Below are positions 42,361 to 44,504 of a DNA stretch of 61,915 nucleotides, one piece after another. The notes under the pieces were generated by a model that worked only from the letters and a program-made list of their open reading frames with translations, was not told the origin of the DNA and did not search any database. The DNA is from Gluconobacter oxydans (GTDB lineage Bacteria; Pseudomonadota; Alphaproteobacteria; Acetobacterales; Acetobacteraceae), in the NCBI RefSeq assembly GCF_006539685.1, contig NZ_BJNM01000018.1:1-61915 (forward strand), written 5' to 3'. Position 1 is the stretch's first letter. Each line of letters starts with the position of its first letter. Made by a program: the position numbers and the translations under genes.

Positions 42361-42435
42361 GCCGGGTTAGCACAGTGGTAGTGCAGCGGTTTTGTAAACC
42401 GAAGGCCGGGGGTTCAAATCCCTCACCCGGCACCA
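42361..42435 (+). tRNA. tRNA-Thr (anticodon TGT)
   Basis: The acceptor stem GCCGGGT pairs with ACCCGGC, discriminator A, encoded CCA. The anticodon loop TTTGTAA gives TGT (codon ACA). The T-arm GGGGGTTCAAATCCCTC is clear. A G-A mismatch sits at the outer anticodon-stem pair. Folded by eye. Confidence 0.93.
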
Positions 42436-42890
42436 GCTTTTTCCAAAAAGCGGCCAATACCCCGGGCGACTGGAAAATGTTGTTCAAACCGGGACTTGCA
42501 CGTCGAAATGCCGGCATTTCCAAGGCCACGGACTCCAGAAACACCCTCTGAAAATCAGTAATGCACAAGTATCGTAATCGCAGAGGGTGGAATGTGGGTA
42601 TTCCCAGAATCCTCTTGACAGCTTTGTGCTGAGAATCGGATTGCACCCACGATTCGTGGATGAAATTATCAAACCAAATCAGATACTTAAAAACATAACC
42701 CCGAGAATCAGTCCGAATCGAACCGCCTTAAAGAGAGTCTCCAAGCCTGTGGATAACTCTGTTCGTAAAAAAATCAGCAGCTGTTGTGATGAGAGTCACA
42801 CGAATTCGGTCTGAATCTCCCAAAAAACCCACGCAAATAAAAACAGACAAGAAAATCTGCTTTTACCTGACGTTTACAGTCATGAATATT
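42436..42890. other. AT-rich non-coding stretch with DnaA box and GANTC cluster
   Basis: No credible gene is seen here. The composition is visibly more AT-rich than its surroundings. A perfect DnaA-box sequence, TGTGGATAA, lies at 42748-42756. Nine GANTC sites (the CcrM target) lie in 42532-42817, at 42532, 42607, 42633, 42651, 42705, 42715, 42735, 42793 and 42813, against about one expected by chance in that length. A weak inverted repeat (GCAGA / TCTG, about 42845-42870) may terminate the minus-strand thyX unit. The stretch follows the tRNA 3' end directly. Confidence 0.6.
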
Positions 42891-43088
42891 TTACGACGCA
42901 GGCCAGAAAAAATGAATGGCCAGAGAAGTCAGAACAAGAGCAATAGCTATTGCCGTCCATAGAAATAGATTTGGCGCTCTTTCTGGTACATCTTCGACTG
43001 GATTGGCCGCCTGTGCTTCTCTTGCGACGAGCATCAGGCGTTCAAGATCGTTTCCGGCAGGTCCCGGAGCGGGATCAGGATGCGCCAT
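42891..43088 (-). CDS. small single-helix membrane protein downstream of thyX
   Basis: A 65-residue protein whose start overlaps the thyX 3' end by 14 bases. The first two thirds are polar (a short helix near [14 protein letters not shown], then a proline-rich link), and the end is a strong membrane helix ([22 protein letters not shown]). Tail-anchored topology is likely. Unrecognised; likely co-transcribed with thyX. Confidence 0.6.
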
Positions 43089-43986
43089 CCAGAACCGCCG
43101 CCATTTCCGACCACTCGCGCTTGGTCAGGCCGGAATTTTCCTGCGTGACCGTTTCACCGGCCAGACGGCGGCGCACCACCTTCAGCATACCGGCAGAAAG
43201 CGTGAAGGCGCCGAGACGATATTCCTCAAAGGCCGCCGCCGTTGCCGGAACCCACGCCTTGAGAATCTCGATCATTTTTTCCGCATAGACGCGGATTTCA
43301 TACTGCGCGTGCGGATCGGCCCGCAGGGCAAGGAAATGCATCAGATTATGCAGATCGATCTTCCAGTACCACTGCGTATAGGTGTTCAGGGTCAGGTTGA
43401 TCCGCGCGAGTTCACGCGCCAGACCTCTTCCTTCCGGGTTCAGAAGGCTTTCGTAGTCATCATAGCACTGGCTGGCATCGCGGCGCAGGATCTCCAGAAC
43501 CTGATGCGCCGTATCGGCATCCAGGGCATCGCTCCGCCCCTGCCGGTTCGAACTGCTCTGTGCGGCGACCTGGTCCATCGCCGGCAGATAGAATTCGCGG
43601 TCCAGAATGGAATAGCGCGCGGAATACTCATTCACGCTCGCCATGCGATGGCGGATCCACTGACGCGCCACGAACACGGGCAACTTCACATGGAACTTGA
43701 TCTCGCACATCTCGAACGGCGTGGAATGACGGTGACGCATCAGATAGCGGATCAGCCCCGCATCCTCGGACACCTTCTTCGTCCCGCGGCCGTAAGACAC
43801 CCGGGCCGCCTGCACGACCGCACCATCATCGCCCATATAGTCGACGACGCGCAGGAAGCCATGATCCAGCACCTCGAAAGGTGTGAAAAGCAGGTTTTCC
43901 ATCGCCGCCACGGTCGGACGGGAGGTCAGCTGGGGTTCGCTGCGCTGCGCTTCGATTTCAGCGCGCTGTTCGGATGTCAGTGCCAT
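43075..43986 (-). CDS. thyX: flavin-dependent thymidylate synthase
   Basis: Makes dTMP from dUMP using FAD and methylene-THF. The ThyX signature [15 protein letters not shown] matches RHRxxSxxxxSxR exactly. Segments such as [13 protein letters not shown] are the substrate-binding region. At 303 residues it is a typical alphaproteobacterial form. Its presence suggests the strain does not rely on ThyA, though thyA could lie elsewhere. A small membrane-protein gene overlaps its 3' end. Confidence 0.95.
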
Positions 43987-44125
43987 GGCGGCGGCTTTAG
44001 CATGGGCTTTTGCCCGACGTCATCCGAATGAATCGGATTGACACGATTCCGGAGGCTTAATTTTTTTCATCCCCGCCTTTTCCCTTGCGACGGGACACGC
44101 GCACTCCTATGTTCAGCAGTGCAAG

Positions 44126-44404
44126 GGGTTCGTCCCCGGCTATGGCGATAAACGGTAAGTGAAATAAGTGTTGTGGACCCGGGGGCAGTGCCCGGCGTCT
44201 CCACCAAGAACAACCCCTCGCAAAAGGGGTCTGTGGGGACGAAACAGGCTCGACACGCATGGTAAAGACTTATCTTTTGCCCGGCATTGTACCACCGTCA
44301 TCGGGCTAAACTTACAAGTGCCAACGATAACTCAGAGGTGCTCGCTGTCGCTGCATAAGCGATAAGCGCGGTTCGGGAGGGCACCGGGCAACAGAAGCCC
44401 TCCC
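44126..44404 (+). ncRNA. ssrA: two-piece (permuted) tmRNA
   Basis: The acceptor piece comes first and ends GTCTCCACCA at 44206; the coding piece starts GGGGACGAAACAGG at 44235, its first seven bases pairing with CGTCTCC of the acceptor piece. A 28-base intervening segment with a CCCCT/AGGGG hairpin lies between. The tag ORF at 44320-44358 reads ANDNSEVLAVAA followed by TAA, starting from a GCC resume codon. A hairpin (44375-44404) closes the coding piece. This circular permutation is the alphaproteobacterial pattern. The 5' edge of the acceptor piece is approximate. Confidence 0.92.
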
Positions 44405-44504
44405 ACCTCATCATGTCCCCGACATTCACAGCAAAGACGGCTTGCCATCCGCGCCCGTCTGTCGCATCCCTGAGCAAGTTGACCGAAACATCAGGCTTGC
44501 GACC

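Follow-up and report, generated by a model that had tools for sequence, protein, structure and literature searches.

Behind a tRNA-Thr gene of Gluconobacter oxydans lies an AT-rich gap that carries a DnaA box and a crowd of GANTC sites, and the question is what such a gap is for. The window, by which we mean the whole stretch of 61,915 nucleotides analysed here, corresponds to C18, one of the 107 contigs that make up a draft genome of 2.71 Mb. In the gap, at positions 42436-42890, GC content drops to 44.4% against 61.9% across the window, as the initial annotation had seen, and the perfect DnaA box that it had read there is present too (Table 1). Three explanations had been offered: a replication origin, a titration or regulatory site, or the relic of an element inserted at the tRNA. 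The second fits what we find: the gap is conserved and apparently non-coding, and its DnaA and IHF motifs keep a fixed spacing. We argue that it is probably, if only just, a non-coding chromosomal control site for DnaA and IHF, of the datA kind, which would restrain DnaA after initiation.

The gap is flanked by convergent genes, and is therefore the promoter region of neither neighbour. A terminator scan finds none just after tRNA-Thr on the + strand, so that read-through from this gene would be allowed. In the six genomes tested, no frame stays open throughout a 270-bp part of the gap, each being interrupted by at least one stop. A small protein was considered and rejected: a frame that begins with ATG and crosses block A is free of stops in the window, but has in-frame stops in loci L015-L017, both readings being by eye. 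On the far side of the locus, a two-piece (permuted) alphaproteobacterial tmRNA adjoins thyX, at window positions 44081-44449.

Table 1. Features of the gap, its neighbours and related DnaA-box loci. Fractions refer to the 14 Gluconobacter-type gaps unless stated otherwise.
Feature	Position	Strand	Remarks
tRNA-Thr (TGT)	42361-42435	+	ARAGORN and Rfam; transcribed towards the element
Nine GANTC (CcrM target) sites	42531..42817	.	287 bp; counted in the gap
Conserved block A, TGGAATGTGGGTATTCC...CTTGACAG	42556..42621	.	Gluconobacter only; best 12-bp windows 94-100% mean conservation
Weak DnaA box TAATGCACA	42559..42567	+	one mismatch to TTWTNCACA in the window; at most two in 13/14
Weak DnaA box TGTGGGTAT (as read on +)	42593..42601	-	at most two mismatches in 14/14
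IHF-type site TAAGTATCTGATT	42677..42689	-	strand of the main DnaA box; start +67 from box start
Conserved GANTC between IHF-type site and DnaA box	42715..42719	.	14/14
Perfect DnaA box TTATCCACA (TGTGGATAA in the window)	42748-42756	-	exact motif
Weak DnaA box TTACGAACA	42760..42768	-	tandem, 12 bp from main box; at most two mismatches in 14/14
CRP-like palindrome TGTGA-N6-TCACA	42785..42800	.	exact, same spacing in 12/14; 0/7 other gaps
Conserved GANTC	42813..42817	.	13/14
Intrinsic-terminator-like stem-loop, thyX-side transcript	42834..42869	-	weak: 1 found vs shuffles averaging 1.1
Small ORF, 65 aa	42891..43088	-	no Pfam match; convergent with tRNA-Thr; 3' end conserved in alignment
thyX (Thy1 family)	43075..43986	-	convergent neighbour of the gap
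plsC-side box	G000:C2:151035-151050 (L066), also L144-L163		motif search
uvrC-side loci	L164, L167-L170, L172, L173, L177, L178, L183, L184, L186, L187, L190, L191		other genera of the family

The first step is to see how far the gap is shared by relatives, a check that the initial annotation had proposed. A BLASTN search with the gap finds matches in 14 of 26 genomes of the same genus, our own included, and the remaining loci of the genus were located through thyX. The perfect box with its flank TGTGGATAANTNTGTT is found in the same gap in 21 of the 26 genomes (our own and 20 of 25 congeners); the five from which the element is absent (G054, G077, G079, G081 and G083) have no tRNA-Thr beside thyX either. 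Two genomes, G069 and G072, have the box yet no tRNA-Thr in that place. Over all 21 gaps, the string of an intact tRNA-Thr stands upstream of the site in 14, its 3' half alone in three, and neither in four. At three loci (L013, L017 and L047) the 5' half of the tRNA gene is replaced and the 3' half, which adjoins the element, is kept whole, a pattern such as integration into the tRNA gene would leave.

The 21 gaps fall into two sets: 14 align well, and will be called Gluconobacter-type, and seven form a looser group, called group 2. In the 14-row alignment, mean identity reaches 88-95% in 15-bp blocks at block A and at the box with its flank, and is about 50% in the stretches between conserved blocks. 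The pattern of block A occurs at 13 loci among 84,980 species, each represented by one genome, in a scan that may exclude records near that of the window itself; all 13 are titled Gluconobacter, with one locus per genome. In a sample of the family, three of 59 other genomes match the gap, over just 20-38 bp around a DnaA box. These short matches, which come from three other genera and from a small contig of our own genome, were set aside as DnaA-box contexts where they were read, the one in G030 being judged by the box scan only; the flank GAGTTATCCACAG recurs near E. coli oriC and at further DnaA sites within the family. Judging by these searches, the element is restricted to one lineage.

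The second step concerns the GANTC sites. They start at 42531, 42607, 42633, 42651, 42705, 42715, 42735, 42793 and 42813, so the count of nine in about 286 bases was accurate. An excess of roughly eight times chance had been claimed for them: the excess is real, and its size depends on the baseline, being about 4-fold against the composition of the gap and more than 20-fold against the rate of 1.40 per kb over 455,915 sampled bases of the genome, window included. First-order Markov resamplings of the gap hold 2.3 sites on average, and reach nine once in 2000. Equal density elsewhere, which had been named as a ground for doubt, does not occur in the sampled bases: among 287-bp stretches starting at a site, no cluster of five or more is found outside the gap, and the maximum of four is attained by five stretches. 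The next-densest 286-bp bin of the window holds two sites, and other AT-rich windows (below 48% GC) in the sampled DNA hold between zero and three.

The initial annotation had read these sites as CcrM targets. The genome encodes a CcrM-like methylase (NF050803, E 2e-189, 629 bits, below the model cut-off of 830; E 2e-144 against the CcrM of PDB 6pbd). The cluster as such is not conserved: only the sites at 42715 and 42813, two of the nine, are kept across the 14 Gluconobacter-type gaps, the former with one row that reads GACTC instead of GAATC. Eight or nine sites per gap are found in the window, G070 and G075 alone (P at most 0.002); among the 14 gaps, two others reach a nominal P below 0.05, and in group 2 the P values of five out of seven gaps are between 0.006 and 0.027. 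An excess of GANTC, taken alone, was thus rejected as a general property of Gluconobacter, 11 of the 14 gaps having at most five sites, and the extreme density is peculiar to the source species and its two nearest relatives. Summed counts come to 68 against 27.4 expected in the 14 Gluconobacter-type gaps, and to 31 against 11.3 in the seven of group 2, with neither total reached in 1000 resamplings, for stretches that were picked after the alignment had been inspected. The GANTC cluster is a partly species-specific layer on the conserved element.

The third step is the search for protein-binding motifs. The genome encodes a DnaA protein, and a count of DnaA boxes over the whole genome had been recommended: perfect boxes number 10 against 8 for a reversed-pattern control, and as such are therefore without genome-wide enrichment. 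A scan of the 14-row alignment for TTWTNCACA, in which up to two mismatches were allowed and 12 rows or more had to match, returns five positions (42559, 42593, 42748, 42760 and 42762), of which the last two overlap; permuted motifs yield a mean of 0.74 conserved positions, and none of 300 reaches five. When at most one mismatch is allowed, 42748 alone remains, a result equalled by 15 of 300 permuted motifs.

For IHF we used WATCARNNNNTTR, our own relaxation of the consensus printed as TAAnnnnTTGATW in PMC10950094. The putative site YAANNNNYTGATW at 42677 is exact in 12 of the 14 Gluconobacter-type gaps and has one mismatch in the other two; a conserved match of that kind is obtained with one of 500 permuted motifs. 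Measured on the strand of the main box, the motif starts at +67 or +68 in the 12 exact gaps and, in four of the seven gaps of group 2, at +68 or +69; the rows that are not exact comprise two at +67 with one mismatch and two at +69 with two, and in G072 the motif sits at +26. Altogether, a motif on this strand at +67 to +69 is exact in 16 of the 21 gaps, and has one mismatch in two more. The baseline is six matches in 720,000 strand-bases, or one per 120,000, from 360 kb of our own genome; since that sample is mostly GC-rich, chance matches would be commoner in an AT-rich gap. Of the nine perfect boxes elsewhere in the genome, a single one, situated on a 3.3-kb contig, is accompanied by a nearby IHF motif, at +76.

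The GC skew had been proposed as a way to place oriC. Within the window the skew is negative in 29 of 30 bins of 2 kb, the positive one being 18-20 kb, and it keeps its sign across the gap. A clear two-arm pattern emerges from twenty sampled 20-kb stretches of G072, a genome labelled as the same genus with only about 45% GC and a contig of 2.16 Mb: a sharp origin-type change occurs near 969 kb, at the gap between hemE and maf (both names are our reading of the proteins). The skew also changes at hemE in G064, G065 and G079; in G073, hemE is absent from the 60 kb sampled. In our own genome the hemE/maf gap is on contig C17, with motifs recognisable by eye as shared with that of G072, and without a perfect DnaA box. 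One result complicates this picture: in the three Gluconobacter-type genomes tested, the skew does not change at hemE/maf. Our own (G000) has its cumulative minimum near C17:54 kb, 37 kb from hemE/maf, within C17:16.8-54 kb, after a short positive patch at 40-45 kb; G062 (C2) has its minimum about 22 kb away, with mixed signs beyond; and G070 (C5) has no lasting change within the 53 kb sampled. None of the skew-change places of these genomes is inside the window. In the three relatives that have both loci on one contig, all outside Gluconobacter proper, oriC and the site are separated by 345 kb in G072, or 16% of its contig, by about 547 kb in G065 (about 17%) and by about 520 kb in G064 (about 14%), the last two percentages being relative to rounded assemblies of 3.3 and 3.6 Mb, all contigs counted.

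A non-coding site with DnaA boxes, away from the origin and beside a tRNA gene, calls for a comparison with datA and DARS, which were defined in E. coli. We take DARS1 and DARS2 to be the bioD-uvrB and rppH-mutH intergenic regions, and we scanned these two, together with the datA and oriC regions of E. coli K-12, in the same way as the gap. The scan of datA gives TTGTAAACA at -12, TTATCCACA at 0 and TAACCTATTGATA at +65 on the same strand; additional boxes are found at -67, +162(+) and +174(-). In the window, with offsets calculated from scan coordinates, the corresponding series is TTACGAACA at -12, TTATCCACA at 0 and TAAGTATCTGATT at +67, with weak boxes at +155(+) and +189(-). The string AACAGAGTTATCCACAG is common to both. 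A box at -12 and an IHF motif at +65 never occur together in the DARS1, DARS2 and oriC regions. Two limits apply to this comparison: DARS1 too has a weak box at -12, so that the tandem alone cannot single out datA, and the IHF scan finds no match in the E. coli oriC region despite the known site described there (PMC10950094), so that the motif misses real sites. Both points made a datA-like reading slightly less likely in our judgement, and a DARS-type site slightly more so.

The resemblance extends beyond the offsets. As described in PMC10950094, E. coli datA lies downstream of a tRNA-Gly operon, has a single IHF site, and is activated by IHF after initiation, while read-through from the tRNA controls the binding of IHF and turns datA down. 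The gap is likewise AT-rich, non-coding, off-origin and downstream of a tRNA gene; by motif, it has several DnaA boxes, one perfect and three conserved weak ones, and a single IHF site between them at a fixed spacing. There are also differences. The far boxes are weaker in the window, with two mismatches at +155 and one at +189, and no counterpart is seen of the datA box at -67; the window adds its GANTC sites and the CRP-like palindrome. Moreover, the datA core points away from its tRNA, whereas the element of the window is inverted relative to tRNA-Thr, and the neighbouring genes differ. For these reasons we neither class the gap as homologous to datA nor claim common descent: the element resembles datA and may work like datA, and our claim stops short of saying that it is datA. 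The same source calls DnaA-box clusters of Bacillus subtilis and Streptomyces coelicolor, which are off-origin boxes repressing untimely initiation, analogous to datA (PMC10950094); IHF is not in that description, and the likeness to our gap is one of description.

From this anatomy we infer the following mechanism. DnaA would bind the strong box at 42748 and its tandem weak neighbour at 42760, and IHF, bending the DNA 67 bp away at 42677, would bring in DnaA bound to the weak boxes at 42593 and 42559. The resulting complex would lower the amount of active ATP-DnaA after initiation, by stimulated hydrolysis or by plain sequestration, and early re-initiation would be prevented. Timing could be set in two ways. 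Transcription that continues past tRNA-Thr could dislodge IHF, and the passage of the fork would leave GANTC sites hemimethylated until CcrM acts. Hemimethylation of GANTC after fork passage, and the over-representation of GANTC in intergenic DNA, are described in PMC3973325; IHF is described as broadly conserved in PMC4245941.

The gap is not the only conserved DnaA site of these genomes. Another box, TGTGGATAASTCTGTG, whose flank is similar, is found in 22 of the 26 genomes when one mismatch to the TGTT pattern is allowed, a count that tolerates one other letter at the N position or at the last base in G083-type variants. In the 21 loci of the genus that were read (G076 left out), and in two other genera, its place is the 3' coding end of plsC; at three of these 23 loci the longest frame was another, and it was the sequence that revealed plsC. 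All 23 have the same serine codon, TCT, within the box, and two of these genomes have about 70% GC; the search pattern itself fixes the first and third letters of the codon and four genomes have no match, so that this identity supports a constraint at the DNA level only weakly. In G054, G077, G079 and G081, neither the thyX-side nor the plsC-side motif is found at one mismatch or fewer. Over the family, the motif TGTGGATAANTNTGTK is present in 79 of 150 genomes, our own included, with two matches for the reversed control. Thirty of its loci were read: 11 are plsC matches ending at or near the site, one stands just before hemE, 15 directly precede an ORF that we read as uvrC-like from its protein, and three are without assignment. 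An IHF motif is near the plsC-side box at none of 12 loci tested; at four of 13 uvrC-side loci such a motif occurs on the opposite strand, at a distance of about 100 bp. By eye, several uvrC-side loci have two neighbouring boxes, one inverted at 5 bp and one in tandem at 3 bp, an arrangement also seen in the DARS1 region of E. coli beside uvrB. A small contig of our own genome (L007, G000:C75, 700-1020) carries, also by eye, a plasmid-replication-like gene, a DnaA box and iteron-like repeats resembling CAACGAAACCCCGAA.

These sites bear on the closest rival of a datA-like function, according to which the gap would be a passive off-origin binding site that sequesters DnaA without the ATP hydrolysis of datA. 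Its DnaA boxes are indeed conserved in a non-promoter position, as is the plsC-side box, which has no IHF motif nearby. Yet simple titration leaves unexplained both the strand and spacing of the IHF-type site and the conservation of block A, and we hold it to be unlikely.

More doubtful still is the opposite function, a DARS-type site that would recharge DnaA with ATP. DARS sites are off-origin DnaA-box sites as well, the weak box at -12 is shared with DARS1, and DARS2 is described as needing IHF along with its DnaA boxes (PMC4245941); in group 2, three of the seven gaps carry an additional inverted box (TTATCCACC or TTATCCACT) 26 bp upstream. However, the inverted boxes are placed differently, the gap of the window having none as close to the main box as that of DARS1 (+14), and no DARS region of E. 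coli has a same-strand IHF motif at about +65. Finally, Fis, which DARS2 requires, is described as confined to gamma-proteobacteria related to E. coli (PMC4245941).

The gap could also be the regulatory region of an unannotated small RNA or other transcript, under the control of DnaA, CcrM/GcrA and a CRP-family protein. The palindrome TGTGA-N6-TCACA, which we take to be the CRP consensus, is kept in most Gluconobacter-type gaps; the string TTGACAG is conserved in block A, and so are the two GANTC sites already mentioned. But TTGACAG was rejected as a -35 element, since the alignment has nothing conserved at -10 after it, and a scan of the gap for sigma70-type promoters finds none. No Rfam family reaches its gathering score in the gap, where the one match is a snoRNA at chance level, and the folding z of block A is just -1.7. 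A small RNA was rejected on these grounds, and we give the regulatory reading a low probability.

The two remaining rivals fare worse. That the gap is the relic of an element integrated at tRNA-Thr, or a chance cluster, is very improbable: the replaced 5' half of the tRNA gene in three relatives and the confinement of extreme GANTC density to three genomes would suit it, but the blocks keep position and spacing across divergent genomes, instead of diverging at a neutral rate, and summed GANTC counts exceed all 1000 resamplings in both groups, again for stretches picked after the alignment had been seen. An origin, main or secondary, is hardly credible: the gap is AT-rich and shares DnaA boxes and some GANTC sites with the alphaproteobacterial oriC of the hemE region, besides having an IHF-type site, but the skew keeps its sign on both sides, the oriC homologue is the hemE/maf gap of C17, and the site is 345-547 kb from oriC where both could be placed.

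A site of the datA kind thus remains our preferred reading, and it can be carried one step further, tentatively and with considerable doubt. Acetic-acid bacteria would possess a datA-type brake on the E. coli layout, with a tandem box at -12 and IHF at about +66, but coupled to CcrM: the passage of the fork would be reported by GANTC sites that lie hemimethylated between IHF site and box, and growth by read-through from tRNA-Thr. Together with the plsC box, and with the DARS1-like site on the uvrC side in other genera, the brake would be one of a set of sites that control DnaA away from the origin, in parallel to datA and DARS. DARS-like sites are reported in Vibrio cholerae (PMC6090056). Among the open-access PMC records listed, judged by title and opening of the abstract, none describes a datA-like alphaproteobacterial site, which is weak evidence of absence as 'datA' also matches 'data'. 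Under the reading that involves CcrM, a datA-type brake in alphaproteobacteria would be new to the group. The element offers a defined 300-bp target for deletion and footprinting and, if the reading is true, a datA-type brake arose or survived more widely than in E. coli.
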